A stretch of 64,000 bases of DNA, taken from Microbacterium sp. W4I20 (GTDB taxonomy: Bacteria > Actinomycetota > Actinomycetes > Actinomycetales > Microbacteriaceae). Where the stretch lies: NCBI RefSeq assembly GCF_030816505.1, contig NZ_JAUSYB010000001.1, positions 124,001-188,000 of the forward strand, written 5' to 3'. Shown here in pieces: positions 34,959-54,815 of this stretch. Position 1 is the stretch's first letter. The number at the start of each line of letters is the position of its first letter. Under the pieces are notes generated by a model. The model saw nothing but the letters and a program-made list of their open reading frames with translations, was not told where the DNA came from and did not search any database. The translations under genes were made by a program, and so were the position numbers.

Positions 34959-35792
34959 TCAGGGACGAGCGTCGTCGCGGTCGCGCCCGGTGACATGCCG
35001 GCGGAGCAGTTCGCCGACCGCCCTCATGCCGTCGATGACCGGAGCTCGGAGGTCGACCGGCGAGGTCTTCCAGTTCGCCGCGACGGCGTAGGCGACGCGG
35101 GAGGCCGGTCCGGTGAGGAGTCCGACGTCGACCCGGGCGAAGCTCACGCTGCCGGTCTTGTGCCGGAGAACCATGCCCTGGTACTCCGCATCGACGTGTG
35201 CGAGCGGGTCGAGGAGGAACGAGTCCGCCGTCATGGAGGTGTCGGCATCCGCGGCGAGCCAGCCCAGCACGCGTGCGCAGACGCCCGGGGAGTAGACGTC
35301 TCCCGCGCCCAGGCGCCGAATGACGTCGGCGAGTTCGGCCGCGGTGCCGTACGACGGGGTCCAGGGGAGGTCGGGTGTGCGCTCGTTCCGGATGTAGTCG
35401 AGCAGCGAGGTGCGGGTGTAGCCGAGGTCGGGGGCGACCCGGCGCACGGCCTCCAGTCCGCAGAGGTGGATCAGAGCGTTGGTCGCCAGGTTGTCGCTCA
35501 CCGCCCCGACGAGGAGCGCGGCATCGTGCACCGTGATCCGCTGGTCGTGCATCCGATACAGCAGACCGGAGTCCTCCACGCGGTGCTCGTCCGGCACCGA
35601 GATCCGGTCGTCCTCCGACAGCGTGCCCTCCTCGAGCCGCCGTGCCACCTCGATGAGGAGGAAGATCTTCCCGATGCTCGCGGTCTCGCATTGCTCGTCC
35701 GGCTGGAACTGCGCGAGCACGGTTCCGTCATCCGCGTCGAGCACGGCCACCGACCAGGTGGCGCGCGGATCGAGAGGAGGAAGCGCGATCAT
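34959..35792 (-). CDS. class A beta-lactamase-like serine hydrolase without signal peptide
   Basis: This 277-residue member of the penicillin-recognising serine hydrolase fold has all three motifs: SIGK at residues 39-42, SDN at 99-101 and KTG at 212-214. There is no N-terminal signal peptide (MIALPPLDPRATWSVAVLDA), so it should be cytoplasmic, which argues against secreted antibiotic defence and for a peptidase or amidase acting on imported peptides. Its ATG overlaps the S66 carboxypeptidase stop as ATGA, placing it last in the importer operon. The family is clear; the substrate is inferred from context. Confidence 0.82.
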   Translation of the reverse strand: MIALPPLDPRATWSVAVLDADDGTVLAQFQPDEQCETASIGKIFLLIEVARRLEEGTLSEDDRISVPDEHRVEDSGLLYRMHDQRITVHDAALLVGAVSDNLATNALIHLCGLEAVRRVAPDLGYTRTSLLDYIRNERTPDLPWTPSYGTAAELADVIRRLGAGDVYSPGVCARVLGWLAADADTSMTADSFLLDPLAHVDAEYQGMVLRHKTGSVSFARVDVGLLTGPASRVAYAVAANWKTSPVDLRAPVIDGMRAVGELLRRHVTGRDRDDARP

Positions 35793-36745
35793 GCGTCCGC
35801 CCCGACCGTGAGCTTCGCGCGGTCGCCGTTGGCATCGAGCACCCCGTCCACGCCGAGCGGGATGCTGAGCGCGTTCGGATCGTGGCCGAAACCCTGCTCC
35901 CAGAGGACCGGTATCCCGGCTCGGGCGAATTCCTCCTCCATCAGGGCGCGCACGAGGTCGAGATCTCCGCACTCGTGCCAGGAACCGAGCACGACGGCAG
36001 ACGCGGCAGCGAGCCGGCCCGCCCGCCTCAGCTGCGTGAGGTACCCGTCCAAACGGTAGGGCTCCTCGGTGATGTCCTCCAGGAACAGGATGCCGGGGGC
36101 GGCGACGGCGGCTTCGGGTGCGCCCATCGCGGCGGCGAGCAGACTCAGGTTGCCCCCGGTGAATCGTCCGGTGGCGGTTCCGGGGCTCATCACCTCGGCC
36201 TTCGGCCCGATGAGGTCGCGTCCGCCCCACGGCTCGAACAGCCAGCGGTGCACGTCATCACGGACGAACTCGGAGTCGCGGAACACGTTGTTCCCTGGCA
36301 TCGGACAGAACAGCGTGGCGAGGTCGAGGTGCGCGCGCACCGCCTCGTGCAGCGCCGTGATGTCGGACGAGCCGGTGAGGAGCTTCGGGCGACCATCGAG
36401 CCGGGCGGCCGCGCGCCGCATCTCGTCCCAGTCGATCCCGTCGAGGAGCCGCAGCGCCCCGTATCCGCCGCGGAGCGCGACGACGGCGTCCACCTCGGGG
36501 TCGAGCCACGCATCGACGAGGTCGCGACGTCGGGCGTCGTCCGGGCCGGCGAGGTACTTCGCGCGGGGGTGGGGAGTGAGCACGGCCTCGCCGACGCGCA
36601 CGCGCAGCCCCCACGCCTCATAGAACCCGACGGCGCGCTGCAGGCTCGCTTCATCACCGGGACCTGCGGGCGCGACGAGCGCGACGGTGTCACCGGGCTG
36701 CAGCGGTGCGGAATCAAGGTAGGGCGACCGGCTGGACCGGGTCAT
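35789..36745 (-). CDS. LD-carboxypeptidase, S66 family (LdcA-like)
   Basis: This 318-residue S66 family serine peptidase normally cleaves the L,D bond before the terminal D-Ala of cytoplasmic murein tetrapeptides. The nucleophile is Ser127 in TGSSDITAL, the Glu is in FLEDITEEPYRLDGYL, and the His is in GFGHDPNALSIPLG; LRGGYGALRLLD is also typical. There is no signal peptide. A related reaction is self-immunity cleavage of microcin C-like peptides (MccF), an alternative for this family. It overlaps both the ABC ATPase gene and the beta-lactamase-like gene by 4 nt. Confidence 0.88.
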   Translation of the reverse strand: MTRSSRSPYLDSAPLQPGDTVALVAPAGPGDEASLQRAVGFYEAWGLRVRVGEAVLTPHPRAKYLAGPDDARRRDLVDAWLDPEVDAVVALRGGYGALRLLDGIDWDEMRRAAARLDGRPKLLTGSSDITALHEAVRAHLDLATLFCPMPGNNVFRDSEFVRDDVHRWLFEPWGGRDLIGPKAEVMSPGTATGRFTGGNLSLLAAAMGAPEAAVAAPGILFLEDITEEPYRLDGYLTQLRRAGRLAAASAVVLGSWHECGDLDLVRALMEEEFARAGIPVLWEQGFGHDPNALSIPLGVDGVLDANGDRAKLTVGADA

Positions 36746-38391
36746 GCCGCGCTCTCCTCGATGCGGGGTGCGGCTGCCAGCAGTCGCCGGGTGTACTCGT
36801 GCTGCGGATTCAGCAGCACCTCCTCGGTGCTGCCGCGCTCGACGATCTCGCCCTGGTACATCACCGCCACGCTGTCGGCGATGTTCCACGCCAGACCGAG
36901 GTCGTGCGTGATCACGAGTGCCGACAGGCCGAGCTTGCGCCGCAGAGACAGCAGCAGCCCGAGGATCTCGCCGCGCACCGATGCGTCCAGCGACGCGACC
37001 GGCTCGTCGGCGATGAGCATCTGGGGCTGCACGGCGAGCGCGCCGGCCATGACCACGCGCTGGCGCTGTCCGCCGCTGAGCTCCTGCGGGATCGCACTGA
37101 AGTACCGCTCGGGCGGAGTGAGCTCGGCCTCGGCCAGGCTCTGCGCGACGCGCTCGCGTTCGTCGCCGCCGAAGCGCTGGATGCGCAGGCCTTCGGCCAC
37201 GGATTCGTACACGCTGTGCTTCGGGTTCAGCGCGGCCCAGGGGTCCTGGAGGATGAGCTGCACCTTCGACCGGAACTGCCCGAGGAGGCGGCCCCTGGTC
37301 GGGATCCGCTCGCCGGCGAACAGGATCTCCGAGCCCTGATCTGCGGGCTGCAGGCCCATCAGCGCGCGGGCGAGCGTGGACTTCCCCGAACCCGACTGAC
37401 CGACCAGTGCGACGATCTCGCCCCGGCGCACCGCCAGGTCGACGGTGCGCACCGCGTGCACCGGGCGCCCGCCGGAGCGGTAGGTGACGTTGAGGCCCCG
37501 CGCTTCCAGCAGGACCTCGTCGCCGTGTTCCGTCTCGGGGATGTCGTCCGCGTCGCGGCCGTGCCGTGTGACCGGCGCCATGCGCGACGCGGGGTCGCCG
37601 ATCGTCGGGAAGGCATCCGCCAGCTGGCGCGTGTACGGCTGCGTCGGTCGAGTGCACACGGCGTAGGCCTCACCGACCTCCACGAGCTCTCCATTGCGCA
37701 TGATGGCGATTCGCTGGCAGGCGGTGGCGAGCACCGACAGGTCGTGGCTGATCATCAGCATCGAGATCCCGCGCTCGGCCACCAGCCGCGAGATCATGTC
37801 GAGGATCTGCTTCTGCACGATCACGTCGAGCGCTGTCGTCGGCTCGTCCGCGATGATGACCTCCGGATCGCACGCGAGCGCCATCGCGATCATGACGCGC
37901 TGCTTCTGTCCGCCGGACAGCTCGTGCGGGTAGGACTCCGCCTTCTGCGGGTCGAGGTCGACCACGTCGAGCAGCTCGAGCACTCGGGCCTTGCGTGCCT
38001 GCTCGGTCGACCACTGCTCGGAGACGTGGAGCTGGAGGGCCTCCATGATCTGCCACCCCACGGTGCGCACCGGGTTGAGGGAGTGCATGGCGCCCTGGAA
38101 GACGATCGATGTCTGCGACCACCGCACGGCGCGAAGCCGGCCGAACGACAGCGTCGCCACGTCTTCGTCTCCGAGCAGCACGCGTCCGGTCAGCGTCGCG
38201 TTGCGGGGGAGCAGCCGCAGCACGCTCATCGCCAGGGTGGACTTGCCGGAGCCCGACTCGCCCGCGATGCCGAGGGTCTCGCCGGCCGGGATCGTGAGCG
38301 AGATGTTCCGGACTGCGGCAATCTGCTCACGGGCCGAGCGACCGGTGGTGCGATAGGTGATCGAGACGTCCTCGAAGATGAGATCGGGCAT
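36742..38391 (-). CDS. peptide ABC transporter, fused two-domain ATPase (DppD-DppF type)
   Basis: This 549-residue protein has two complete ABC domains in one chain. Domain 1 has Walker A GESGSGKST (about residues 44-52), signature LSGGQKQRVMIA and Walker B VIIADEPTT. Domain 2 (from about residue 300) has GQSGSGKST, LSGGQRQRVVMAGA and MLIADEPVASLD. The C-terminal oligopeptide-type extensions (PYTRQLADAFP, EYTRRLLAAAPR) mark the Opp/Dpp family. It energises the two permeases upstream. The stop overlaps the S66 gene. Confidence 0.93.
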   Translation of the reverse strand: MPDLIFEDVSITYRTTGRSAREQIAAVRNISLTIPAGETLGIAGESGSGKSTLAMSVLRLLPRNATLTGRVLLGDEDVATLSFGRLRAVRWSQTSIVFQGAMHSLNPVRTVGWQIMEALQLHVSEQWSTEQARKARVLELLDVVDLDPQKAESYPHELSGGQKQRVMIAMALACDPEVIIADEPTTALDVIVQKQILDMISRLVAERGISMLMISHDLSVLATACQRIAIMRNGELVEVGEAYAVCTRPTQPYTRQLADAFPTIGDPASRMAPVTRHGRDADDIPETEHGDEVLLEARGLNVTYRSGGRPVHAVRTVDLAVRRGEIVALVGQSGSGKSTLARALMGLQPADQGSEILFAGERIPTRGRLLGQFRSKVQLILQDPWAALNPKHSVYESVAEGLRIQRFGGDERERVAQSLAEAELTPPERYFSAIPQELSGGQRQRVVMAGALAVQPQMLIADEPVASLDASVRGEILGLLLSLRRKLGLSALVITHDLGLAWNIADSVAVMYQGEIVERGSTEEVLLNPQHEYTRRLLAAAPRIEESAA

Positions 38392-38392
38392 G

Positions 38393-39307
38393 TCACCGGG
38401 TCCTTAGCGTCGGGTTGGTGATGTTCTCGACGGCGCGACCCATCAGAGTGAAGGCGAGCACGACGAGGACGATCGCGAGGCCGGGGACGAGCACGTACCA
38501 CCAGTAGCCGCTCGTGGCCGCGGAGACGTCCATCGCGTTCTTCAGGATGGAGCCCCAGGACTGCAGCGTGGTGTCGCCGAGCCCGAGGAAGGCGAGCGTC
38601 GATTCGGAGATGATGGCGGATCCGACCGTGAGCGTGGTGTTCGCGAGCACCAGCGGCAGCACGCCGGGCAGCAGGTGCTTGATGATGATGTGCCAGTGGC
38701 CGGCGCCGAGCGCGCGGGAGCGCTCGATGTAGTCGCGGGATTCGACGGACAGGGTCTGGGCCCTCACGACCCGAGCGGTGCCCGCCCAGGAGGTGAGACC
38801 GATCGCGATGATGATCGTCCAGACTCCGCGGCTGAGCACCGAGGACAGCACGATCGCCAGGATCAGCGCCGGGAGCACCAGGAAGAAGTCGATGATGCGC
38901 ATCATCAGTCCACCGAAGAATCCGGTGAAGTGACCGGCGGCAATCCCCACGAGGGTGCCGATGATCATCGACATCGCAGTGGCCGCGAGGCCGACGAGCA
39001 GCGACACCCGCGCTCCCCACACCATGCGTACCCAGAGCTCTCTGCCCTGATGGTCGGTGCCGAGCAGATGCTCCCACGACGGGGGAGCGAACCGCTCGAC
39101 GTCGACGAGCTTCGTGACGTCGAGCATGCTCGGCGGTGCGATCACGGGGGCGAGCAGGGCGATCACCGTCACGATGACGAGGAAGACCAGACCGACCATG
39201 CCGGCGCGGTGGTGCGAGAACTGCCGGCAGAAGTCGGCGAAGGCCACGCCTCGGCGATGCCAGGCGAGCGCACGCGGGGAACGGACGGACGGCGCTGACG
39301 TGCTCAT
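38393..39307 (-). CDS. peptide ABC transporter permease (DppC type)
   Basis: This 304-residue permease has an N-terminal membrane helix (VGLVFLVIVTVIALLAPVIA), the DppC-type GTDHQGRELWVRMVWGAR loop, and the EAA loop region ERSRALGAGHWHIIIKHLLP that contacts the ATPase. It has about six membrane helices. The ATG at 39307 overlaps the DppB-type stop as ATGA. The gene starts the pair of downstream permease-ATPase couplings. Confidence 0.92.
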   Translation of the reverse strand: MSTSAPSVRSPRALAWHRRGVAFADFCRQFSHHRAGMVGLVFLVIVTVIALLAPVIAPPSMLDVTKLVDVERFAPPSWEHLLGTDHQGRELWVRMVWGARVSLLVGLAATAMSMIIGTLVGIAAGHFTGFFGGLMMRIIDFFLVLPALILAIVLSSVLSRGVWTIIIAIGLTSWAGTARVVRAQTLSVESRDYIERSRALGAGHWHIIIKHLLPGVLPLVLANTTLTVGSAIISESTLAFLGLGDTTLQSWGSILKNAMDVSAATSGYWWYVLVPGLAIVLVVLAFTLMGRAVENITNPTLRTR

Positions 39308-40347
39308 GCGCGCCTCACTCTCGGGTCGAGCTGTCGATAGATGAGGTCGGCGACGAGGTTCATCACGATGATGATCGCGGAGAACACCACGAACGTGCCC
39401 TGCAGCAGTGGCAGGTCGGGGCCGGAGATCGCCTCGAACGTGAGCTTGCCGAGGCCGGGCCAGGAGAAGACCGTCTCGACCGTCACAGCCCCGGCGATGA
39501 GCCCGCCGATGTGCATGAAGACGAGAGTGACCGTCGGCAGCATGGCGTTCGGCACCGCGTGACGGCGCCGGACGAGGTCGTCGCGAAGACCCTTCGCACG
39601 CGCGGTGGTCAGGTAGTCGGCACCCATCTCCTCGAGCAGCGAGCTGCGCATCACCATGAGGTACTGGGCGTATACGACCGCGACCATCGTGATCACGGGC
39701 AGCACCATGTGCGAGACGACGTCGAGCACGGCGCCCACGGGATCCGTCGGCGGATTGGGAGAGACCATCCCGCCGGTCGGGAACCAGTGCAGCGTGCCAC
39801 CGAAGACCATCAGCAGCAGGAGAGCCAGCCAGAACGTCGGTACCGACCAGAACACCAGCGAGGTGCCCGAGGCGATGCGGTCGAAGGTGGAGCCGTGCTT
39901 CCAGGCGGCCTTCTGGCCGAGCCACAGACCGAGAGCGATCGCGAGGACCGCCGCCGTGCCGGTGAGCAGGATCGTGTTCCAGAAGTACGCGCCGATGAGT
40001 TCGGAGACCGAAGTCCGGTACACGTAGCTCGTGCCGAAGTTCAGCGTGAACACGTTGCCGAGGTAGTCGATGAACTGCTGCCAGAGGGGTTTGTTCAGGC
40101 CGAGCTGCTCGCGCAGCTGATCGGCCTGTTCCGCACTCATCCCGCGCTCGCGGGCGATCGACGCGACCGGGTCGCCGGGGAGGATCTTGAACGCGAAGAA
40201 GCCGAGCAGGATCACCATCGCCATGCTGATGGCCGCTCCGCCGAGCTTGGCGAGGATGTAGCGCAGGGCGCCGACGCCCTGGGGCTGCTCCTCGGCGGAG
40301 CCACTGGTCGCGATGGCGGAGGTGGACGGGGGTACCGCGTTCGTCAT
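39304..40347 (-). CDS. peptide ABC transporter permease (DppB type)
   Basis: This 347-residue permease has about six membrane helices, the DppB-type FKILPGDPVASIARERGMS loop after the first helix, the EAA loop TTARAKGLRDDLVRRRHAVP, and the conserved ETVFSWPGLGKLTFEAI near the end. It has a 30-residue Ser/Pro/Gln-rich cytoplasmic N-terminus. It follows the substrate-binding protein after a gap that holds a strong hairpin. Confidence 0.93.
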   Translation of the reverse strand: MTNAVPPSTSAIATSGSAEEQPQGVGALRYILAKLGGAAISMAMVILLGFFAFKILPGDPVASIARERGMSAEQADQLREQLGLNKPLWQQFIDYLGNVFTLNFGTSYVYRTSVSELIGAYFWNTILLTGTAAVLAIALGLWLGQKAAWKHGSTFDRIASGTSLVFWSVPTFWLALLLLMVFGGTLHWFPTGGMVSPNPPTDPVGAVLDVVSHMVLPVITMVAVVYAQYLMVMRSSLLEEMGADYLTTARAKGLRDDLVRRRHAVPNAMLPTVTLVFMHIGGLIAGAVTVETVFSWPGLGKLTFEAISGPDLPLLQGTFVVFSAIIIVMNLVADLIYRQLDPRVRRA

Positions 40348-40417: not shown

Positions 40418-42250
40418 TCATTCGACGTCGGCGATGTTGCGACGTCGGATCAGGAAGAAGATCAGTCCTCCGACGAGGATGACCCCGACCACGACTCCGC
40501 CGATGATCAGTCCGGTGTTGGTGCCGGTGCCGCCGGCGGTGGCGCCCTCCACCGGCTCGACGGTGAGGTAGCCCCAGTAACCCGCCTGGTTGGCGATGAT
40601 GCCGGTGTCCTTCGGCTGCAGCGTGAAGCCCGTGAAGCGGTCGGACCGGTAGGCCTCCAGGGAGTTCGCGTACCAGGTGGCGATCTGCGCGGTGTCGGTG
40701 TAGTTCAGCTCGAGCATCTCGCGAACGATCTCCTCGCGCTTCGTCTCGTCGAGCTCCGAGCGCTGCTGCGTGTACAGCTCGTCGAACTCCGGGTTGCAGT
40801 AGCCGTCCTGCGTCGTTCCGCCGGTGCCGTCGGTCGACGTCGGCAGGTTCATGCAGGTGTTGATCCCGAGCTGGTAGTCGGGGTCGGGGTTGACGGACCA
40901 GCCGCTGAAGTACAGGTCGTAGTCACCGCTCACGGCCTTCGCGCTGATGGTGTCGGAGTCCGTGGACTCGACCGTGATCTCGATGCCGATGTCCTTCATC
41001 CAGGGCACGAAGAAGTCCGCGATGGACTGCTCGTTGGAGTCGTCGGCGTCGATCATCAGGCGGAGCGCGAGCCGCTCTCCGTCCTTCTCGCGGATGCCGT
41101 CTGCGCCGGGAGCCCAGCCGGCCTCATCGAGCTTCGCCTTCGCTGCATCCGGATCGAATCCCTCGATCACGGAGCTGTCCTCGGGGAGGCTCCACTTCGG
41201 GAACGATGCGGGGATGAAGCTGGTCGCGTGCACGCCCTGTCCTTCGAGGACCTTGTCGAGAAGCGTCTCGGTGTCGGTCCCGAGGCGGATGGCCTGACGC
41301 ACCTCGACGTCCTTCAGCGCTTCGCTTCCCGTGCCGTAGGGCACGTTGTCGCGGGTCTGCTGACCGAGGTTGACGCTGATCGAGTGGAACCGTCGCCCTT
41401 CGCCCGAGTGCGTGGTGATGCCCTCGACGCCGTCCAGCGCGTCGAACTGCGTGGGCGTGAGCCCGGTGACCAGGTCGACGTCGCCGGCCTTGAGCGCCTG
41501 CACCTGTGCGTCGGAGTTCGTGTAGTACACGTACTGGATCGCATCGATCTTCGGGGCTCCACGCCAGAACTTCTCGTTCGCCTTGAGGACGATCGACTGG
41601 TTCGCCGCGTAGCTCTCGAGCAGGAAGGGCCCGGAGCCGACGACATCCTTGTCGTTCGCGAAGGTGGTGGGGTCGTCGACGTTCTCCCAGATGTGCTGGG
41701 GGACGACCGGGATCTCGGAGCCCGGGTTCGGCGCCTGCGGGGTCTTGAGGGTGATCACGACGGTCTTGTCGTCGGGTGCCTCGACGGTGTCGAAGTTCGA
41801 CACGAGGTTGCCGTTCGCGGTGGCGAGCGCCGGAACGGTCATCATCTGCTCGTACGTGTACTTGACGTCTGCGGACGTGATGGGTTCGCCATCCGACCAC
41901 TCCAGATCATCCTGCAGGGTGAAGGTCCACGTGCGGCCGCCGTCGCTCACGTCCCAGGAGTCGGCGAGACCCTTGGTCGGCGAGCCGTCCTCGGCGTCGT
42001 TCTGCACGAGCGACTCGTACACGTAGCGGATGATGTTCGTCGGCGCGAGGTAGATCGAGATGAACGGGTTGAACGTGTCGACGAAGCCGGAGGTCGCGAT
42101 ACGCAGCGTGGTGTCGTCGGCCGGAGCTTCGGTTGAGGCCTGCACCGACTGCGCCTGCGCGGCACTGACCGGGGCGGCGATGAGGAGCGCGGAGACGATC
42201 GCAGCGGCGGTCAGACTTCGCACTGTTCGGGAGCGGGGATCAAGGCGCAT
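40418..42250 (-). CDS. peptide ABC transporter substrate-binding protein with C-terminal membrane anchor
   Basis: This 610-residue family 5 solute-binding protein has an N-terminal Sec signal (SLTAAAIVSALLIAAPVSAAQA) without a lipobox cysteine, and the family core LRIATSGFVDTFNPFISIYL, DDLEWSDGEPITSADVKYTY. Its last residues form a membrane helix (NTGLIIGGVVVGVILVGGLI) followed by RRR, so it is tethered at the C-terminus instead of by lipid. The ATG at 42250 has GAAGGGA upstream. It feeds the permeases and fused ATPase that follow. Confidence 0.9.
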   Translation of the reverse strand: MRLDPRSRTVRSLTAAAIVSALLIAAPVSAAQAQSVQASTEAPADDTTLRIATSGFVDTFNPFISIYLAPTNIIRYVYESLVQNDAEDGSPTKGLADSWDVSDGGRTWTFTLQDDLEWSDGEPITSADVKYTYEQMMTVPALATANGNLVSNFDTVEAPDDKTVVITLKTPQAPNPGSEIPVVPQHIWENVDDPTTFANDKDVVGSGPFLLESYAANQSIVLKANEKFWRGAPKIDAIQYVYYTNSDAQVQALKAGDVDLVTGLTPTQFDALDGVEGITTHSGEGRRFHSISVNLGQQTRDNVPYGTGSEALKDVEVRQAIRLGTDTETLLDKVLEGQGVHATSFIPASFPKWSLPEDSSVIEGFDPDAAKAKLDEAGWAPGADGIREKDGERLALRLMIDADDSNEQSIADFFVPWMKDIGIEITVESTDSDTISAKAVSGDYDLYFSGWSVNPDPDYQLGINTCMNLPTSTDGTGGTTQDGYCNPEFDELYTQQRSELDETKREEIVREMLELNYTDTAQIATWYANSLEAYRSDRFTGFTLQPKDTGIIANQAGYWGYLTVEPVEGATAGGTGTNTGLIIGGVVVGVILVGGLIFFLIRRRNIADVE

Positions 42251-42344
42251 GGAGGAAGTCCCTTCGGGCACCGCCCGGATTCACGATGAAGGCGGGTCGG
42301 TGGAGACCATGCAAGCGGATGTCGGCCCCGGGGTCAAGGGATCG

Positions 42345-42356
42345 GATGCGTATCGT
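42345..42356. promoter_or_regulatory. CGTATCGT motif upstream of the binding-protein gene
   Basis: GATGCGTATCGT lies 95 bp upstream of the 40418-42250 gene, inside its 256-bp leader. It resembles GAAACGTATCGT at 43738-43749 and GAACCGTATC at 43662-43671, both in the divergent control region of the same locus. No other feature explains the 42251-42506 gap, apart from a TAAAAT -10-like hexamer on the minus strand at 42459-42454. A shared regulator is a hypothesis. Confidence 0.3.
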
Positions 42357-42506
42357 CCGGAATTGCTCACGGTGTGTTGCGCCTCGACGTCGGTTCGATT
42401 GCCCTGAAACGGCGGAAAACAGCGGGTACGCGCGATCATCGGTAGTCGTGCAGATTTTACAGCTCGGTAACACGGCGGGGTGATCCGGATCGTATCTGGG
42501 CCGTCG

Positions 42507-43655: not shown

Positions 43656-43677
43656 ATTTACGAACCGTATCTGCCTC

Positions 43678-43706: not shown

Positions 43707-43747
43707 CGCTCGCATCACAAAGATTCGTCGATCTTAGGAAACGTATC

Positions 43748-46385: not shown

Positions 46386-46412
46386 ACCCAGAGCAGACGA
46401 TCGAGGAGTGAG

Positions 46413-47516
46413 TTGAACGGTACGAGGATAGGCGTCATCGACGGGCACAACGATCTCGCCTGGGCGAGCCGATCCGTCCTGGGCTACGGCGTCGACGAAC
46501 TGTGCGAAGCCGTGCCGGCACTGCACACCGACCTCCCGAGGCTCGCGGCCGGCGGGGTCGCCGGACAATTCTGGTCGGTGTGGGTGGATCCGGTGCTCCA
46601 GGATGCGGAGCAGGTGGTCGGCACTCTCGAGCAGATCGACTTCGTGCACCGCCTGGTCGACGCGTACCCCGCCCAGCTGGCGTTCGCGCGCACGGCGGCG
46701 GATGCACGGGCGGCGATGGCGGAGGGACGGATCGCCTCCTTCATCGGCATCGAGGGCGGCGACCAGATCGGCGGCTCGCTCGCCGTGCTGCGGCAGTTCG
46801 CCCGGCTGGGCGCCCGCTACATGACGTTGACCTGGTCGCGCACGATCGCCTGGGCGGACTCCGCCACCGACGATGCGGAACACGGCGGGCTCTCTGACTT
46901 CGGGCGCGAGGTGGTGCGGGAGATGAACCGCATCGGGGTGCTGATCGACCTCGCGCACGTCGCGCCGACCACGATGCGCGATGCGCTGGCCGAGACGACC
47001 CGACCCGTGATCGTGAGTCATTCCGGCGCGTTGGCGCTGTGCGACCATCCGCGCAACGTGCCCGACGACGTGATCGCCGCGATCGGCAGTCAGGGCGGCG
47101 TCGTGATGGTGCCGTTCGTGCCGACCTTCCTCACCCAGGCGCGCCGGGACTGGTGGACCACCGGTGAGGCGGGAGACGCACCCCCGGTCGGCGTGTCCGA
47201 TGTGGCGGACCACCTCGACCACGTCCGGCGGATCGCGGGGATTCATGCGGTCGGGATCGGCGCCGACTACGACGGCACCGACGTGATGCCGGACGGCCTG
47301 GCCGACGTCTCCTCCTACCCCGCGCTCTTCGAGGAGCTCCGCGATCGCGGGTGGTCCGACGCCGACCTCGCCGCGGCCGCGCATGAGAACGTGCTGCGCG
47401 TGCTGGAGGCATCCGACCCTGATCATGAGGCGTTCCTCGCCGGACGCGCGGGTGCCCCATCGCGTGCCGCGATCGCACCCGCGATCGACACGGCTGTGCG
47501 GGCGAGGCGCTCATGA
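46413..47516 (+). CDS. membrane dipeptidase-type (M19) dipeptidase
   Basis: This 367-residue M19 amidohydrolase-fold peptidase has zinc-site motifs IDGHNDLAW (residues 8-16), IGIEGGDQIGGSL, VIVSHSGALALCDHPRNV and GIGADYDGTD. M19 enzymes hydrolyse dipeptides, and many bacterial members accept a D-residue at the C-terminal position. No signal peptide is present. The start is TTG at 46413, supported by GAGGAG 5 bp upstream. It follows the racemase gene by 27 bp and overlaps the amidotransferase by 4 nt. Confidence 0.88.
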   Translation: MNGTRIGVIDGHNDLAWASRSVLGYGVDELCEAVPALHTDLPRLAAGGVAGQFWSVWVDPVLQDAEQVVGTLEQIDFVHRLVDAYPAQLAFARTAADARAAMAEGRIASFIGIEGGDQIGGSLAVLRQFARLGARYMTLTWSRTIAWADSATDDAEHGGLSDFGREVVREMNRIGVLIDLAHVAPTTMRDALAETTRPVIVSHSGALALCDHPRNVPDDVIAAIGSQGGVVMVPFVPTFLTQARRDWWTTGEAGDAPPVGVSDVADHLDHVRRIAGIHAVGIGADYDGTDVMPDGLADVSSYPALFEELRDRGWSDADLAAAAHENVLRVLEASDPDHEAFLAGRAGAPSRAAIAPAIDTAVRARRS

Positions 47517-48226
47517 GCGCCCGCGTGCTCGTGGTCGTCAACTCGGTGAGCTCGGGTCCACGGCGACTAGAGACCTGGCTGAGGGAGCGCGACATCTCGG
47601 TCGAGCAGGTGGTCGGAGCGGAGGCGCCGCTTCCCGCGGCGCTGGACGGCTTCGACGGCCTCGTGCTTCTCGGCGGCGGGCTGATGCCCGACGACGACGA
47701 CCAGGCGCCGTGGCTCCCGGCGGAGCGAGCGCTCGCCGCGGCAGCCATCGCCGCAGACCTTCCGACCCTCGGCATCTGCCTGGGCGGCCAGCTGATCGCC
47801 CACGTCGGCGGGGGAGAGGTCCGGGCCAAGACAGGGCCCGTCGAGCGCGGGGCGACACCGATCCGGCCGACGGATGCCGGTCGCCAGGACGCTCTGTTCG
47901 GAGTGCTCGGCGATGGTGCCCCGATGATCGAGAACCATCAGGACATGATCACGCGTCTCCCGCCGGATGCCGTGCTGCTGGCATCCAGCGACGCCGTCGC
48001 GAACCAGGCCTTCCGGCTGGGCGAGCACGTGCGCGGCGTGCAGTTCCATCCGGAGGCCAGTGCGGCCGACCTCCGTCAGTGGGATGACGCGGCGCTGCGC
48101 GGCGAAGGGCGCGCGCTGCCGGAGCTCATCGCCGAGGCGGAACGGGCCGATGCGCGCAACACCGCTGCCAGCCGCGGCCTCGTCGACGCCTTCGCCGACG
48201 AGGTGCTCGAGCGGGTGCACGCATGA
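47513..48226 (+). CDS. class I glutamine amidotransferase domain protein
   Basis: This 237-residue stand-alone triad GATase has nucleophile Cys89 in LGICLGGQL and the His179/Glu181 pair in VQFHPEAS. There is no synthase partner in the operon, so it may hydrolyse an amide or gamma-glutamyl bond rather than supply ammonia. In the peptide-salvage context, removal of the amide from amidated D-Glu or diamino acid residues is one possibility; this is speculation. It overlaps the M19 and S12 genes by 4 nt each. Confidence 0.83.
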   Translation: MSARVLVVVNSVSSGPRRLETWLRERDISVEQVVGAEAPLPAALDGFDGLVLLGGGLMPDDDDQAPWLPAERALAAAAIAADLPTLGICLGGQLIAHVGGGEVRAKTGPVERGATPIRPTDAGRQDALFGVLGDGAPMIENHQDMITRLPPDAVLLASSDAVANQAFRLGEHVRGVQFHPEASAADLRQWDDAALRGEGRALPELIAEAERADARNTAASRGLVDAFADEVLERVHA

Positions 48227-49758
48227 GCCGGTGGGACAGCCTCGACCATCTGACGTTCGATCAGGCAGCGGGGCGCGCGCTGGAGGCGGGACTCGACGAG
48301 CGTGCCAAGACACTGGCGCCCGGGTCGATCGCGGCGATCTCGCTGCGCGGCGAGGTGCGGGCCGTGGTCCCGCAGGGCACCCCGCGTGAGGATGCCGCGC
48401 CGACGACCCGCGACACCGTCTTCCGCATCGCCTCGATGTCGAAGAGCTTCCTGGCCGCGGCGGTGCTCGCGCTCCGCGATCGCGGTCTGCTCGATCTGCA
48501 TGCACCGATCACGGAATACGTCCCGTACGTCAAGGCTCAGTACGCCGGCCGGGATACCGTGATGACGGGCGCTCTGCTGCTGTCCAACCGCGCAGGGCTC
48601 AGCGAGGATAACGCGTGGGTCGATCGCCACCTCGGCGCCACCAGGGCCGAGATCGCGGAGCTGTTCACCACCGGACTCCCGCTGTCGGCGAGGCCGGGGA
48701 CGGTGTATCAGTACTCGAATCTCGGCCAGTCCCTGCTCGGCCGGGCTGTCGAGACAGTGACGGGGCGGCCGGTGGATGATGTCGTGCGCGAGCTCCTGCT
48801 CGAACCGCTCGGCCTGGACCGCACCGCCCACGTCGCCGACCGGTACACGAGCACGTCACTCGCCACCGGATTCCGCACCTTCGACGAGGGGGCGACGTTC
48901 GTCGCGGAGCCGTTCGTCGGCTCGGGCGCCCTCGCCTGCATCGGCAGCCTGTTCAGCACGGTCGAGGACATCGCCACGTGGATGTGGTTCCTCGGCTCGG
49001 CGTACACCGATCAGCCGACGCATCCGGAGGTCCTCGCCCCGGAGTCCCGCCGTGAGATGCAGCAGCTGCACACGCCCATGCCGGTGCCTGCCGCAAAGCC
49101 CGGTGAGCGCGAACTCGCCGGACTCGGCTACGGCTACGGGCTGTTCGTGGAGGACGACCGTCGGTTTGGCCGAATCGTGCAGCACTCGGGTGGCCTCCCC
49201 GGTTTCTCGGCGCACATGCGCTGGCACGCCGCGACAGGGGCAGGCGCCGTCGTGTTCGGCAACTCCGACGGCTATGGGGCGAAGCGTGTCGCAGAGAACG
49301 TGCTGCGCGAGCTCCTCGTCGGTATCCACGCGCCCTCCGCGGTGATCCAGCCATGGCCGGCGACGGTGGATGCGGCGCGCAGCATCGACCGGATGCTGCG
49401 CGATGGCAGCTCGTCGACGGAGCTGCCCCTGCTCGCCAGCAACGTCCTCGAGGACGTTCCCGCCGCCGTGCGCGACGAGCGGTTCGCCGCCCGACGGGAC
49501 GAGGTCGGCGGGATCGTCGCCGAACAAGAGCAGTTCGAAGAGCGGATCGTCTCATCGGCGACGGAGGCGCAGCTGCGCTGGCGGATCTCGGGGGAGAGCG
49601 GCGACCTCCTGGTCGATACGGCGATGGTCGGCGTCCCGAAGCCGCTCGTCCAGAGCCTGGTGATCTCGGCGGTGGACCGCGGACAGTCGCTCCTCCCCGA
49701 CGAAGAACCCTCCGCGTCCGACCATCATCGGCTGGTGATCCCCGGGTCGCAGCGCTGA
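48223..49758 (+). CDS. S12-family serine hydrolase (beta-lactamase/D-aminopeptidase-like)
   Basis: This 511-residue class C beta-lactamase fold protein has SMSK at residues 71-74, YSN at 164-166 and HSGG in IVQHSGGLPGFSAHM. A C-terminal ~140-residue extension follows the catalytic domain, as in D-aminopeptidases and some esterases of this family. No signal peptide is visible, so it is probably cytoplasmic. The operon context favours a peptidase acting on D-residue peptides. It ends the tightly coupled gene chain; a 101-bp gap follows. Confidence 0.8.
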   Translation: MSRWDSLDHLTFDQAAGRALEAGLDERAKTLAPGSIAAISLRGEVRAVVPQGTPREDAAPTTRDTVFRIASMSKSFLAAAVLALRDRGLLDLHAPITEYVPYVKAQYAGRDTVMTGALLLSNRAGLSEDNAWVDRHLGATRAEIAELFTTGLPLSARPGTVYQYSNLGQSLLGRAVETVTGRPVDDVVRELLLEPLGLDRTAHVADRYTSTSLATGFRTFDEGATFVAEPFVGSGALACIGSLFSTVEDIATWMWFLGSAYTDQPTHPEVLAPESRREMQQLHTPMPVPAAKPGERELAGLGYGYGLFVEDDRRFGRIVQHSGGLPGFSAHMRWHAATGAGAVVFGNSDGYGAKRVAENVLRELLVGIHAPSAVIQPWPATVDAARSIDRMLRDGSSSTELPLLASNVLEDVPAAVRDERFAARRDEVGGIVAEQEQFEERIVSSATEAQLRWRISGESGDLLVDTAMVGVPKPLVQSLVISAVDRGQSLLPDEEPSASDHHRLVIPGSQR

Positions 49759-49859: not shown

Positions 49860-51479
49860 ATGCCCGCACGTCCCGCGCGCCGCCTTCTGCCGCTCACCGC
49901 CCTCGTCGCCGCCACCGGACTCGTGCTGAGCGCCTGCGCTGCGCCGGCATCCCCGAGCGGCGGAGACGCCGACGCCGAACTCGTCTGGTCCATCGAGGGC
50001 GCGAACCTGTCGGCGGGGCACATGGATCCGCAGATCAGCCAGCTCGACGTCTCGGGCATGGTGCAGCGCGCCGTTCTCGATTCGCTGGTGTTCCAGGAGG
50101 ACGACGGCTCCTTCTCACCGTGGTTGGCGACGGAATGGAAGGTCTCGGACGACAGCACCGAGTACACCTTCACGCTGCGCGACGACGTCACCTTCACCGA
50201 CGGCGAACCGTTCGACGCTGAGGCGGTCAAGGCGAACTTCGACCGCATCGTCGATCCCGAGACCGCGTCGAAGCAGGCGGCCAGCATGCTCGGCGCCGAC
50301 TTCTACGACGGCACCGAGGTGGTCGACGAGCACACGGTGACCGTGCGGTTCACGCAGCCCTACGCGCCGTTCCTGCAGGCCGCGAGCACCCCGCAGCTCG
50401 GCTTCTACTCGCCGGCGGTGCTCGCCGAGTCCGCCGACCAGCTGGCGGCCGGCGGCCCCGGCATCACCGTCGGCACCGGTCCGTTCGAACTGACTGAGTA
50501 CACGCCCGATCAGGAGATCGTGTACACGCGCAATGACGACTACGCCTGGGGTCCGCACGGCGACGAGGCGCCGAAGTTCGAGACGCTGCGGGTGGAGATC
50601 CAGCCCGAGGCCTCGGTCCGTACCGGGGTGGTGGAGAGCGGCGAGAGCGATCTCGCCAGCAACATCCCGCCGAACCTCGCGAAGGACCTCGGCGACGGCA
50701 TCACGGTGGACTCCGTCGAGTACCCGGGCCTGCCGTACTCGCTGTACCTCAATGAGAAGTACGGCCTGTTCGCCGACGAGAAGGTGCGGCAGGCGTTCGC
50801 CCGCGGCATCGACATCGACGCGGCGGTCGACGAGATCTTCTTCGGTCAGTTCCCGCGTGCGTGGAGCATCCTCGGATCGACCACGCCCGGGTACGACGCG
50901 TCTCTCGAGGACAGCTGGCCCTTCGACCAGGACGAGGCGAACAGGCTGCTCGACGAGGCCGGATGGACCGAGCGGAACGCCGACGGCATCCGCACGAAGG
51001 ACGGGGCGCCGCTCTCCGTCCGCTGGATCGCCTACACGCCGGTCCCGGATGACCGCGCCGCTCTCGCGAACGCGATCCAGTCCGACCTCAAGGAGATCGG
51101 ATTCGACGTGAAGCGCGAGGTCCTCGAGCCCGGCGCCTACAACGACCAGTACATCCCGAAGACGTTCGACCTCACGGACTGGGGCTTCTCCGGCGTCGAT
51201 CCGGATCTGCTGCGCGCCCACCTGCACACCGACGGCTTCCAGAACGCCTCCCAGGTGAGCGATCCCGAGATCGACGGGCTTCTCGAGCAGGCGGTCGCGA
51301 CCAGCGACCAGGGCGAGCGCGACGAGCTGTACACGCAGCTGCAGGAGTGGAACGCCGACTACACGGCGATCGTGCCGCTCTACAGCCCGTCGGCGATCAC
51401 CGCGGTCGGTGAGCGGGTCGAGGGACTCGACTACGACCTGTACGGTCGGCCCCTGTTCTACGATGTGACGGTCGGCTGA
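49860..51479 (+). CDS. peptide ABC transporter substrate-binding lipoprotein
   Basis: This 539-residue family 5 solute-binding protein has a lipoprotein signal (LLPLTALVAATGLVLSAC, Cys26). The core motifs are FTLRDDVTFTDGEPFDAEAV, PYAPFLQAASTPQLGFYSPA and DWGFSGVDPDLLRAHLHTDG. In contrast to the other binding protein of this locus it is lipid-anchored. It begins the second importer set, followed by two permeases and a fused ATPase. Confidence 0.93.
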   Translation: MPARPARRLLPLTALVAATGLVLSACAAPASPSGGDADAELVWSIEGANLSAGHMDPQISQLDVSGMVQRAVLDSLVFQEDDGSFSPWLATEWKVSDDSTEYTFTLRDDVTFTDGEPFDAEAVKANFDRIVDPETASKQAASMLGADFYDGTEVVDEHTVTVRFTQPYAPFLQAASTPQLGFYSPAVLAESADQLAAGGPGITVGTGPFELTEYTPDQEIVYTRNDDYAWGPHGDEAPKFETLRVEIQPEASVRTGVVESGESDLASNIPPNLAKDLGDGITVDSVEYPGLPYSLYLNEKYGLFADEKVRQAFARGIDIDAAVDEIFFGQFPRAWSILGSTTPGYDASLEDSWPFDQDEANRLLDEAGWTERNADGIRTKDGAPLSVRWIAYTPVPDDRAALANAIQSDLKEIGFDVKREVLEPGAYNDQYIPKTFDLTDWGFSGVDPDLLRAHLHTDGFQNASQVSDPEIDGLLEQAVATSDQGERDELYTQLQEWNADYTAIVPLYSPSAITAVGERVEGLDYDLYGRPLFYDVTVG

Positions 51480-51556: not shown

Positions 51557-52501
51557 GTGAAGGCTGCGTCACTCCGTATCGCGGGCCTCGCCGCATCCCT
51601 CGTCATCGTCCTGTGGGGCGCGGCGACCGTCGCGTTCCTGGCCTTCCGGCTGATCCCGGGCGACCCCGTGTCGGTGATGCTCGGCCCGCAGGCCCAGGTG
51701 AGCGAGGCCGTCAAGGACGGCATCCGCGCCGAACTCGGCCTCGATCGACCGCCGTTCGAGCAGTACCTGACCTTCATCGCCCAGCTCGCTCGCGGCGACC
51801 TGGGGGAGTCGTACCAGCTGCGGATGCCGGTGACCGAGGTGATCGGCAGGCAGCTCGGGGCGACCCTGCAGCTGGCGGTGCTGGCGCTCGTCATCGCGGT
51901 GGTCCTCGCGCTCGCGGTGGCTCTGTTCGTGCGCGGCGAGGCGGGTCGTGCGGTCGCGGCCGGCATCGAGCTCGTGGTGCTGTCGTCGCCGGTGTTCTGG
52001 ATCGGGCTCATCCTGCTCAGCGTCTTCGCGTTCGGCCTCGGGTGGTTCCCGGTATCGGGCACGCGGAACCCCGCGACGATCGTGCTGCCCGCGATCACGC
52101 TGGCGCTCCCGGTCGCCGCGCTGCTGAGCCAGGTGCTCCGGGATGGGCTGGTCCAGGCCGAGCGGATGCCGTTCGCCGAGACGGTCCGCGCACGCGGCGC
52201 AGGGCCGACCTGGTTCACGCTGCGGCATGGGCTGCGGCACGGAGCCGCGAACGCCGTGACCCTCGCCGCCTATCTCACCGGCTCGGTCCTCGGCGGAGCG
52301 GTGCTCGTGGAGACCGTCTTCGCCCGCCCGGGGCTCGGTCGCGTGACGCTCGCGGCGATCAGTGACCGCGACCTGCCGGTGATCACCGGGGTCATCCTGC
52401 TGAGCGCGGTGGTCTTCGTCGCCGTGAACCTCGTGGTGGAGTTGCTGCATCCGCTGATCGATCCCCGGGTGACCGTGTCTCGCCCCGGTCTCGTGCGATG
52501 A
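51557..52501 (+). CDS. peptide ABC transporter permease (DppB type), second set
   Basis: This 314-residue permease has about six membrane helices, the FRLIPGDPVSVMLGPQAQVS loop after helix 1, the EAA loop ETVRARGAGPTWFTLRHGLR and the conserved ETVFARPGLGRVTLAAISDR. The GTG at 51557 has GGAAGGGAGAA upstream. Sequence identity to the first-set DppB is visibly low outside the motifs, so the sets are not recent duplicates. Confidence 0.92.
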   Translation: MKAASLRIAGLAASLVIVLWGAATVAFLAFRLIPGDPVSVMLGPQAQVSEAVKDGIRAELGLDRPPFEQYLTFIAQLARGDLGESYQLRMPVTEVIGRQLGATLQLAVLALVIAVVLALAVALFVRGEAGRAVAAGIELVVLSSPVFWIGLILLSVFAFGLGWFPVSGTRNPATIVLPAITLALPVAALLSQVLRDGLVQAERMPFAETVRARGAGPTWFTLRHGLRHGAANAVTLAAYLTGSVLGGAVLVETVFARPGLGRVTLAAISDRDLPVITGVILLSAVVFVAVNLVVELLHPLIDPRVTVSRPGLVR

Positions 52502-53310
52502 GGCGCGCGCAGCGCGGGCTGCTGTGGGTCGCGATCGGCGTGCTGCTCGTGATCGGCTTCGCGGCCCTCTGGCCCGGCCTCCTGGCGACGCACGATCCGC
52601 TGCAGACCGACGTGCGGTCCGCGCTCCTGCCGCCGGGCGCCGAGCACCTCTTCGGTACCGATCAGAGCGGACGCGACGTGTACTCGCGCGTCGTCTTCGG
52701 CGCCGGGCGATCGCTCGGCATCGGGCTGCTCGCCACCGCGATCGCCCTCGTGGGCGGACTCGTCCTCGGGGCGCTCGCCGGCGTCGCCCCGCGCGCGGCC
52801 GACGCGATCATGATGCGGATCAACGACGTCCTGATGGCGTTCCCCGAGTTCCTGGTGGCGCTCGTCGTCGTCGCCGTGCTCGGGCCGGGACCGGTGAACA
52901 TCGCAATCGCGGTGACCCTCGCGGCCGTTCCGGTGTACATCCGTCTCGCCCGGGTGCAGACACGCACCCTGCGCGGGGCCGAGCATGTCGAAGCGGCGCG
53001 CATCCTCGGCGTTCCGCCGGTACGGGCATTCGTACGCCATGTCGCGCCGGGGGTGCTGGGCTCGCTCAGCGTGCTGGCGACGATCGGCATCGGCTCGAGC
53101 ATTCTCGCCGCGGCGGGTCTGAGCTTTCTCGGCCTCGGACCATCCGAACCCACCCCGGAGTGGGGGCTGATGCTCGCCGGCGGACGCAACGTGCTCGGTC
53201 AGGCGTGGTGGATCTCGGTGTTCCCCGGTATCGCGATCACGCTGACCGTGGTCGCCGCGACCGTCGTGGGGCGCATCCTCCGGGCGCGGGCAGACGGGCG
53301 GCGCGCATGA
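52498..53310 (+). CDS. peptide ABC transporter permease (DppC type), second set
   Basis: This 270-residue permease has the DppC-type GTDQSGRDVYSRVVFGAGRS loop, the ATPase-contact region EAARILGVPPVRAFVRHVAP and SFLGLGPSEPTPEWGLMLAG before the last helix. The ATG overlaps the DppB stop as ATGA, and its own stop overlaps the ATPase gene by 4 nt. Confidence 0.92.
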   Translation: MRRAQRGLLWVAIGVLLVIGFAALWPGLLATHDPLQTDVRSALLPPGAEHLFGTDQSGRDVYSRVVFGAGRSLGIGLLATAIALVGGLVLGALAGVAPRAADAIMMRINDVLMAFPEFLVALVVVAVLGPGPVNIAIAVTLAAVPVYIRLARVQTRTLRGAEHVEAARILGVPPVRAFVRHVAPGVLGSLSVLATIGIGSSILAAAGLSFLGLGPSEPTPEWGLMLAGGRNVLGQAWWISVFPGIAITLTVVAATVVGRILRARADGRRA

Positions 53311-54815
53311 CCGCGGCGCTCGAGATGCAGGGTCTGCGGATCTCGTTCGACGGCACGCCGGTCGTCGACGGCGTCTCGTTCACGGTCGCGCCGGGGGAGT
53401 GCGTGGCGATCGTCGGAGAGTCGGGCGCGGGCAAGTCGCTGACCGCCCGTGCGCTTCTCGGGCTCACACCGGCGGATGCCGAGGTGCACGTCGAGCGGCT
53501 CGTGGTCGACGGGGTGGACGCAGGGTCGCTCAGCGAGCGTGCCTGGCGGGGGCTGCGCGGACGGCGGATCGCGCTCGTCTCTCAGGACGCCCTCGTCTCC
53601 CTCGATCCGCTGCGCCGGATCGCGGACGAGATCGCCGAGCCTCTGCGGCTGCACGGGCTCGTCCGCGGGCGGATGGCGCTCGCCGGCCGGGTGCGGGAAC
53701 TGCTGCAGAGGGTGTGGATGCCGGATGCCGAGCGCCGGGCGCGCCAGCATCCGCATGAACTCTCGGGCGGGCTGCGGCAGCGCGCCCTGATCGCGTCGGC
53801 GCTCGCTGCCGATCCGGCGGTGCTCGTGGCGGACGAGCCGACGACCGCGCTCGATGCGACGGTGCAGGCCCGGATCCTCGATCTCCTGCGGGAGATCCCG
53901 GACGACGGGACTGCCGTGGTGTTCATCAGTCACGACTTCGCCGCCGTGCGCCGTCTCGCCGACCGGGTGCTGGTGATGCGCGGCGGCGTGGTGGTGGAGC
54001 AGGGACCCGTGGCCGAGGTGCTCGAGCATCCGCGTCACGAATACACCCGGCAGCTCATCGCGGCCACCATCCACGAACCGCGCACCTCGGTGGAGACGTC
54101 GGCCGATCCGGTGCTGGTGGTCGCCGAAGCCTCGAAGAGCTTCGGCGAGGTCCCGGCCGTGGTGGACGCCTCGTTCTCGGTGCCCACGGGACGCACGCTC
54201 GGTATCGTCGGGGAGTCGGGCTCGGGCAAGACCACGCTCGCGCGCATGATCGTCGGGGTCGAACGCCCTGATTCCGGAGCACTGCGCTGGATCGGCGAGC
54301 GCCGGGTGCAGCTCGTCCACCAGAATCCGCTCGGAGCGTTCGACCCCCGCTGGACCGTGGCTCGCTCGCTGCGCGAGGCCCTCGAGGCCGGGGGCGTGCC
54401 GCGCTCGCACCGTGCCGCGCGCGTGACCGCCCTGCTCGCCGAGGTCGATCTCGACCCCTCGCTGGCCGGCCGGCGACCGATCGCCCTCTCCGGCGGGCAG
54501 CGCCAGCGGGCGGCCATTGCCCGGGCGCTGGCCGCCGATCCCGAGGTGCTGGTGCTCGATGAACCGGTCTCGGCTCTCGATCCTTCGGTGCGCGAACGCA
54601 TCCTGCGCCTGCTGGCTCGACTGCAGCGGGAGCGCGGTCTCACGATGATCCTCGTGTCACACGATCTCGATGTGGTCGCTGCGGTGTCCGACGAACTCTT
54701 GGTGATGCAGGACGGCCGCATCGTCGAGCAGGGTGCGACCGCCACGGTGTTCGGTTCACCGCAGCATCCGTTCACTCGAGAACTGCTCGCCGCGAGCGGT
54801 GCCGTCAGTCCTTGA
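53307..54815 (+). CDS. peptide ABC transporter, fused two-domain ATPase, second set
   Basis: This 502-residue protein has two ABC domains. Domain 1 has GESGAGKSLTARALL (about residues 34-48), signature LSGGLRQRALIA and VLVADEPTTALD. Domain 2 has GESGSGKTTLARMIV, LSGGQRQRAAIARA and VLVLDEPVSALD. The GL in the first signature (LSGGL) replaces the usual GQ and may be functional or degenerate. The ATG at 53307 overlaps the permease. Its 3' end overlaps the convergent pentapeptide-like gene by 11 nt. Confidence 0.92.
   Translation: MTAALEMQGLRISFDGTPVVDGVSFTVAPGECVAIVGESGAGKSLTARALLGLTPADAEVHVERLVVDGVDAGSLSERAWRGLRGRRIALVSQDALVSLDPLRRIADEIAEPLRLHGLVRGRMALAGRVRELLQRVWMPDAERRARQHPHELSGGLRQRALIASALAADPAVLVADEPTTALDATVQARILDLLREIPDDGTAVVFISHDFAAVRRLADRVLVMRGGVVVEQGPVAEVLEHPRHEYTRQLIAATIHEPRTSVETSADPVLVVAEASKSFGEVPAVVDASFSVPTGRTLGIVGESGSGKTTLARMIVGVERPDSGALRWIGERRVQLVHQNPLGAFDPRWTVARSLREALEAGGVPRSHRAARVTALLAEVDLDPSLAGRRPIALSGGQRQRAAIARALAADPEVLVLDEPVSALDPSVRERILRLLARLQRERGLTMILVSHDLDVVAAVSDELLVMQDGRIVEQGATATVFGSPQHPFTRELLAASGAVSP

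Follow-up and report, generated by a model that had tools for sequence, protein, structure and literature searches.

What does a species of Microbacterium do with a locus that combines two peptide importers, an amino acid racemase, an acyltransferase and a series of hydrolases? The locus lies at positions 34959-54815 of a 64,000-bp stretch of DNA, called the window here (C1:124001-188000 of the 4.31-Mb genome of Microbacterium sp. W4I20), and comprises 17 genes in two divergent sets that are separated by an intergenic gap at 43656-43747. A first-pass annotation had taken it for a possible salvage locus for D-amino-acid peptides (muropeptides), in which peptides are imported and then cleaved in the cytoplasm. 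The enzyme kinds, their co-occurrence and their conservation support this order of events, and we consider it likely that the locus is a D-peptide assimilation system working by import, cleavage, acylation, racemisation and deacylation.

Gene content of the locus

The proteins were identified by Pfam and NCBIfam scans (Table 1). On the minus strand, from the centre outward, there follow an M20 metallohydrolase, the four genes of importer 1 (solute-binding protein SBP1, permeases B1 and C1 and a fused ATPase), an S66 LD-carboxypeptidase and a class-A-like serine hydrolase. The plus strand encodes a GNAT acyltransferase, a SIS protein, a racemase of the N-succinylamino acid racemase/o-succinylbenzoate synthase (NSAR/OSBS) family, an M19 dipeptidase, a class I glutamine amidotransferase-like protein (GATase), an S12-type serine hydrolase and the four genes of importer 2 in the order SBP2, permease B2, permease C2 and fused ATPase 2. 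The scans confirmed the two divergent gene sets, the seven enzymes named in the first-pass annotation together with the GATase and the SIS protein, and the two complete Opp/Dpp importers, each with an SBP_bac_5 protein, two BPD_transp_1 proteins and one ATPase with two ABC_tran stretches. The statement that nearly all genes overlap by 4 nt went too far: such overlaps are found at 9 of the 15 same-strand junctions, M20 is separated from importer 1 by 235 bp, and 101 bp precede SBP2. The seven enzymes have no apparent signal peptide when their N-termini are inspected by eye, in agreement with the earlier reading. The key catalytic residues of eight enzyme families were checked and are kept across the ortholog rows compared, rows below 40% identity or with an internal stop having been dropped (among them NSAR of G263 and G265, M19 of G186 and M20 of G476).

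The proposed D- to L-amino acid conversion core

The racemase belongs to the enolase superfamily, scores 279.5 bits with TIGR01928 (cut-off 200.65) and has N-acylamino acid racemases as its best solved relatives. Its two catalytic lysines and three metal ligands (KLK 162-164, D189, E216, D241 and K265) are invariant in 22 of 22 ortholog rows and in an alignment of 24 rows that includes both groups of NSAR discussed below. R268, three residues past the second lysine, is invariant in all 24 rows of this alignment; an arginine in this position is linked to NSAR activity. With the dipeptide epimerase models the racemase stays below the cut-off (NF041118, 59.3 versus 500 bits; NF011708, 45.9 versus 343 bits).

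In a set of 23 proteins the GNAT profile matches the GNATs encoded beside NSAR in five other genera with E-values of 2e-33 to 5e-41. These come from a survey of plasmids that yielded 84 records with an NSAR match, six of which were inspected; a GNAT of the same family adjoins NSAR in five. In Priestia, RpiR and an amidohydrolase accompany GNAT and NSAR; in Lysinibacillus the two genes come with a peptide transporter and M20, in Streptomyces with serine hydrolases, M20 and an Opp importer, in Deinococcus with permeases, a binding protein, a D-aminoacylase and two serine hydrolases, and in Arthrobacter with M20 and a serine hydrolase. In Cytobacillus NSAR lies with RpiR and M20, without GNAT. 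The best solved relative of the M20 protein is carboxypeptidase G2, and its metal-ligand residues are kept in 23 rows.

Sakai et al. reportedly described in 2006 (Biochemistry 45:4455) an N-succinylamino acid racemase pathway in which GNAT, NSAR and M20 bring about the irreversible conversion of D- to L-amino acids. Judged by family membership, the GNAT, NSAR and M20 genes of the locus, which likewise stand side by side, are the gene set of this route. In its Geobacillus type the M20 hydrolase is reportedly specific for N-succinyl-L-amino acids. The locus differs from the pathway by its added peptide importer, S66, class-A-like, S12 and M19 hydrolases and GATase, by a SIS protein without the HTH_6 domain, by paired operator-like sites and by an M20 protein of the carboxypeptidase G2 type.

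Conservation and distribution

Genes in relatives were located by tblastn, and open reading frames (ORFs) in them were called by a simple base-position rule; the candidates scored in each genome were the first 9 in the family search and the first 7 in the phylum search, so that some matches may have been missed there, and nearly all in the genus searches. Among 199 genomes of the family the racemase is present in 12 (its own included) at 54-100% identity, all other matches having at most 45%. Among 99 genomes of the genus a close group of 12 is found at 65-100%, and the rest reach at most 47%. The SIS protein and the S66 type occur in the same 12 of the 99 genomes; the other 87 have no match at E <= 1e-20. 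In all 11 other carriers within the genus, 13 genes (class A, S66, the four of importer 1, M20, GNAT, SIS, NSAR, M19, GATase and S12) form one cluster of constant order. Because racemase, SIS protein and S66 type share the same 12 genomes and the order of the 13 genes is kept, the block is not a product of chance. The gene set thus does co-occur elsewhere, as the first-pass annotation had proposed to check, and the genus offers a natural comparison of carriers with non-carriers. In 11 other carriers within the family M20, GNAT and NSAR are together in every case and the SIS protein is present in 10; all 13 genes are found in G133, G186 and G051. Gene identities, intact key residues, co-occurrence, gene order and the paired sites (see below) are observed properties of the block.

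Species genomes were scanned with the SIS alignment; of the 108 relatives detected the best 80 were kept, with flanks of up to 10 kb, genes beyond the end of a contig or flank being counted as absent. These 80 loci contain a match to NSAR in 78, to GNAT in 76 and to M20 in 75 cases, and in 72, from many actinobacterial genera, the arrangement is canonical, with M20 divergent from GNAT-SIS-NSAR. Loci of Kribbella, Jiangella, Saccharopolyspora, Nesterenkonia and Acidipropionibacterium mostly consist of the core alone; the expanded form occurs in genera of the Microbacteriaceae, in Gordonia amarae (L160) and in part in Galactobacter (L162). The expanded genes are matched in 37 (M19), 37 (GATase), 36 (S12), 33 (SBP1), 31 (S66) and 23 (class A) of the 80 loci. 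In the phylum sample the SIS protein was detected in 2 of 396 genomes; in one of these (G476) S66, M20, NSAR, GNAT and Opp genes lie on one strand with the SIS gene further on.

The genome harbors a second NSAR at C1:3318447 (42% identity) in a locus (L067, C1:3309000-3328999) where genes for Opp permeases, parts of an ATPase, an S12 protein, M20 and GNAT follow one another; similar runs are present in G028, G256 and G280. Of 34 NSAR loci of about 40-47% identity, fetched as 20-kb stretches, 23 have a match to GNAT and 5 to M20, and within these stretches none has a match to the SIS protein, S66, M19 or GATase.

Among 10 chosen ORFs beside the core in five core-only loci, Pfam identified an Amidohydro_3 protein, which follows NSAR immediately in L195 and with one ORF in between in L178. 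The remaining ones (gamma-glutamyltranspeptidase, diaminopimelate epimerase, Na/H antiporter, CoA-transferase, TIM, sugar-binding regulator domain, MMPL and NMT1-like) have no clear link to the core.

Peptide hydrolases and the proposed mechanism

The nearest solved relatives of the S66 protein are murein tetrapeptide carboxypeptidases (104.7 bits), the best MccF reaching 54.9 bits. Its GSSD motif is invariant in 18 of 18 rows compared, one row being incomplete because the gene is split in G291; the genome holds a second, different S66 gene. The class-A-like hydrolase keeps the SxxK, SDN and KTG residues in 16 of 16 rows, the S12 protein keeps the Ser and Lys of SxxK and the YSN in 15 of 15, and the GATase keeps its Cys and FHPE in 18 of 18. 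The best solved relative of the M19 protein is 3id7 (1.4e-107). M19 and GATase are fused into one protein in 8 of the 17 relatives having M19.

Two observations concern the outer end of the minus-strand set. In many near relatives a second class-A-like gene sits at the position corresponding to 34908-34958, which is here a gap of 51 bp, and in G133 a gene for an Lrp/AsnC-type regulator lies between S66 and class A (L038 12983-13498), a relative of which is found in the same place in G186.

We propose that importer 1, in this lineage together with importer 2, brings in oligopeptides with D-residues. The cytoplasmic S66 enzyme would take C-terminal D-residues off L-X-D-Ala ends, the class-A-like and S12 hydrolases would cleave D-D or D-amide bonds, and dipeptides of the form L-X-D-Y would be split by the M19 dipeptidase. 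The GATase, acting with M19, may take off an amide, e.g., from D-Gln or D-isoGln. Free D-amino acids would then be N-acylated by GNAT, probably with succinyl-CoA as succinyl donor, NSAR would interconvert the N-acyl-D and N-acyl-L forms, and M20 would hydrolyse the N-acyl-L form to the L-amino acid and so pull the pathway forward. The SIS protein probably senses a compound of the pathway and would act on the divergent promoter with its paired sites. In this mechanism we infer the substrates, the acyl donor, the source of the peptides, the role of the GATase and the regulatory step. If it is true, the use of D-rich walls or D-peptides would be linked to nitrogen supply.

The SIS protein and a pair of operator-like sites

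The SIS protein (229 aa) consists of a SIS domain only: the Pfam scan revealed no HTH_6, of 461 homologs found, the 120 listed have no precomputed Pfam domain other than SIS, and the structural model has just two short low-confidence helices ahead of the helix at residue 28. Its fold is closest to RpiR and MurR domains, and it is a relative of these regulators lacking the usual DNA-binding domain. In SIS domains that bind sugars a phosphosugar loop is expected; here an RRY stretch takes its place. The MurR/RpiR genes beside NSAR in Priestia and Cytobacillus share with it a homologous SIS domain (profile matches of 1e-13 and 3e-16 in the 23-protein set) and a neighbourhood with M20 and NSAR, but their products, which bear the annotation of transcriptional regulators, are longer (284 and 265 aa). 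The SIS homolog of G476 (L112 18756-19685) is longer at the N-terminus, where it resembles, by eye, a worn RpiR helix-turn-helix region.

Two direct operator-like sites, one beside each of the divergent start codons, are the only ones in the genome at one mismatch or less. The pair is present in 14 of 23 loci compared, with a spacing of mostly 76-77 bp, and was not found in G287, G070, G133, G186, G062, G088, G122, G124 and G003. The right-hand copy is kept in G287, G133 and G186, and other single matches of 12-13 of 14 positions occur in G062 and G124; G088 has no good match and is also the sole locus of 22 without a match to the SIS protein. No probability is given for the count of 14 in 23, because the consensus was derived from the same sequences on which it was tested, only non-overlapping dinucleotides were preserved in the shuffles, and the genomes, being related, do not count as independent. 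When 42200-43800 was scanned for the sigma-70 consensus, one minus-strand site was detected upstream of SBP1, at the stop of M20; the divergent gap had none, and we therefore claim no promoter there.

A more far-reaching interpretation is that the SIS protein derives from RpiR, has lost its helix-turn-helix and still controls its own operon via the paired palindrome-like sites, by a new DNA contact or a partner, with an (acyl-)D-amino acid as ligand rather than a phosphosugar, so that the locus would form a dedicated actinobacterial regulon of D-peptide assimilation. We regard this as speculative and as rather improbable in its entirety. A regulator relative without HTH_6 that is conserved together with such sites is a separate, testable puzzle.

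Further enzymes in related loci

A class IV aminotransferase adjoins NSAR in 11 relatives (between NSAR and M19 in 9 of them) and has a match in 25 of the 80 SIS loci. Its nearest solved relative is CpuTA1, which transaminates D-alanine (PMC5131300). The two proteins chosen for scanning belong to PF01063 and fit the NCBIfam models of aminodeoxychorismate lyase best, one scoring above and the other just below the cut-off; a mycobacterial relative is reported to carry out both reactions (PMC8105722). In the locus itself the position of this gene is a gap of 27 bp (46386-46412), and an aminotransferase of 47% identity is encoded at C1:3735280. A DadA-like FAD enzyme is matched in 6 of the 80 SIS loci. 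The occurrence of these two enzymes in related loci fits the proposed function. One of the six loci (L158, from Leucobacter zeae) has SIS, M19, GATase, S12, S66, importer 1 and the DadA-like gene without a match to NSAR, GNAT or M20, and from its gene content it looks as if one route of D-amino acid use had been replaced by another.

Assessment of the proposed function and of other readings

Several points weigh against a D-peptide assimilation system. No activity is known for any protein of the block. M20 matches its NSAR-linked counterparts in Lysinibacillus and Cytobacillus weakly (E about 1e-4) and, within the 23-protein set, does not match the amidohydrolase beside NSAR in Priestia; because of this weak similarity to the NSAR-linked M20 proteins of Bacillota, its role as deacylase rests on position. 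NSAR enzymes accept several N-acyl groups. Eight of the 80 SIS loci are non-canonical, two of them (L158 and L214) having no match to NSAR, GNAT or M20 within the flanks read, and the operator-like pair is present in 28 of the 72 canonical loci. In core-only loci no match to S66 or importer 1 was found within the flanks read, so that the core alone does not imply peptide import. As to the additional enzymes, the two aminotransferases scanned resemble aminodeoxychorismate lyases in their model scores and fall far below the cut-off of the D-amino-acid transaminase models, and the DadA-like protein is below the cut-off of its own model (176.5 versus 383).

The strongest rival is the recycling of muropeptides, in which fragments of the cell's own or its neighbours' wall would be used, NSAR would act on the acylated D-Glu, D-Ala or D-Orn of stem peptides, and the locus would be an actinobacterial counterpart of ykf in Bacillus; we judge it a real possibility that falls short of being probable. 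The proximity of S66 to murein tetrapeptide carboxypeptidases and the likeness of the SIS fold to RpiR and MurR speak for it, as do the muropeptide peptide genes ykfABCD of Bacillus, which include an S66 protein, an epimerase and an Opp ATPase (PMC3305447). The two systems share the S66 carboxypeptidase, a part of an Opp-type importer and an isomerase of the enolase superfamily; they differ in that here the dipeptide epimerase is replaced by NSAR, GNAT and M20, an NlpC/P60 endopeptidase is absent, and M19 and serine hydrolases are added. Against recycling, Pfam scans confined to the 17 genes of the block revealed no sugar-processing, amidase or NlpC/P60 domain, the RRY stretch stands where a phosphosugar loop would be expected, and the presence of the block in only 12 of 99 genomes of the genus would be odd for a housekeeping function. 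The muropeptide label of the first-pass annotation therefore survives as a plausible source of peptides, but neither the domain content of the block nor the core-only loci speak for more.

It is also conceivable, though on the whole unlikely, that two operons happen to adjoin, one being the D-amino acid block including importer 1 and the other importer 2, which would have a substrate of its own. Of the 11 other carriers in the genus, 4 have importer 2 next to the block (in G220, G227 and G256 in full, in G221 as far as fetched and completed by L140), and SBP2 is matched in 10 of the 80 SIS loci. The gap before SBP2 also fits a separate operon, as does the finding that the genome has no third operator-like site at one mismatch. 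On the other side, gene order is kept in the relatives that have importer 2, and Opp genes, S12 and M20 also adjoin the second NSAR of the genome. The two importers had been presented as parts of one system; this holds for importer 1, which belongs to the conserved block, whereas importer 2 appears from its distribution to be a local addition, shared at this place solely by near relatives. By eye, SBP1 has an apparent signal peptide that lacks a lipobox cysteine, and near its C-terminus an apparent membrane segment with RRR behind it; SBP2 has a lipobox-like cysteine.

Inactivation of peptide antibiotics (microcin C-like or beta-lactam) by S66, GNAT and serine hydrolases in a defence or resistance island is very improbable. 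The S66 family includes MccF, and the class A and S12 folds include beta-lactamases. The ranking of the S66 relatives given above, the scores with the beta-lactamase models, all of those listed being far below cut-off (the class-A-like hydrolase reaches 49.4 bits with the class A model, cut-off 200), and the absence of a PADLOC match among five proteins tested disfavour resistance to microcin or beta-lactams, and the NSAR-GNAT-M20 core is metabolic.

NSAR-family enzymes are in many cases promiscuous and bear an annotation as menaquinone enzymes. The least credible reading, that the racemase is the cell's o-succinylbenzoate synthase among unrelated peptide genes, as the name of TIGR01928 and the menC annotation on many plasmid relatives might suggest, is rejected because a dedicated, full-scoring actinobacterial MenC is encoded at C1:1445229 (474.3 bits, cut-off 288), and the racemase gene travels with GNAT and M20.

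Since the genome has its own menC and the racemase lies inside a conserved block with a transporter, hydrolases of the D-peptide type, GNAT and M20, the role of this actinobacterial NSAR becomes directly testable. The first-pass annotation knew of no described system with this set of genes. This stands for the full set but not for its core, the gene set of the reported D-to-L pathway. A literature search, mainly of titles and the beginnings of abstracts and with few subscription papers, gave no description of the gene set among the matches listed. The parts are ordinary; the whole seems to be an undescribed conserved variant on a known pathway, new in its combination with importer, peptidases and a pair of control sites.

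Features of the locus and neighbouring genes

Table 1. Genes and operator-like sites of the locus (window positions).
Feature	Position	Strand	Basis
Class-A-like serine hydrolase, cytoplasmic (PF13354)	34959..35792	-	Pfam 1.5e-36
S66 LD-carboxypeptidase	35789..36745	-	PF02016/PF17676, both domains
Importer 1 fused ATPase	36742..38391	-	Two ABC_tran stretches, oligo_HPY
Importer 1 permease C	38393..39307	-	BPD_transp_1, OppC_N
Importer 1 permease B	39304..40347	-	BPD_transp_1
Importer 1 solute-binding protein (SBP1)	40418..42271	-	SBP_bac_5 3.2e-89
M20 metallohydrolase, carboxypeptidase G2-like; proposed N-acyl-L-amino acid hydrolase; GTG start assigned in this analysis	42507..43655	-	PF01546/PF07687
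Operator-like site, left copy; 2 bp from assigned M20 start	43658..43671	+	
Operator-like site, right copy; abuts GNAT start	43734..43747	+	
GNAT acyltransferase; proposed D-amino acid N-succinyl (or other acyl) transferase	43748..44539	+	PF00583
SIS protein, RpiR/MurR relative without HTH_6; candidate sensor	44536..45225	+	SIS Pfam domain
NSAR/OSBS-family racemase	45222..46385	+	TIGR01928 above cut-off
M19 dipeptidase	46413..47516	+	PF01244 2.9e-108
Class I glutamine amidotransferase-like protein (GATase)	47513..48226	+	PF00117
S12-type serine hydrolase	48223..49758	+	PF00144 1.4e-45
Importer 2 solute-binding protein (SBP2), accessory	49860..51479	+	SBP_bac_5
Importer 2 permease B, accessory	51557..52501	+	BPD_transp_1
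Importer 2 permease C, accessory	52498..53310	+	BPD_transp_1
Importer 2 fused ATPase, accessory	53307..54815	+	Two ABC_tran stretches

Beside importer 2 a pentapeptide-repeat-like protein, below the Pfam cut-off, is encoded on the minus strand (54805-55473) and is 76-79% conserved in G220, G227 and G256.

On the other side of the locus (32264-34907, minus strand) valS matches are found in two frames that meet near 33500, the identity to a relative being about 91% on either side of the break; none of the valS matches of the genome, this one included, is above the valS cut-off, and the frame break is probably an assembly indel. A valS-family-like gene at 57098-59834 (plus strand), probably ileS, is likewise in pieces in different open frames, which meet near 59003 and again suggest assembly indels in this genome.

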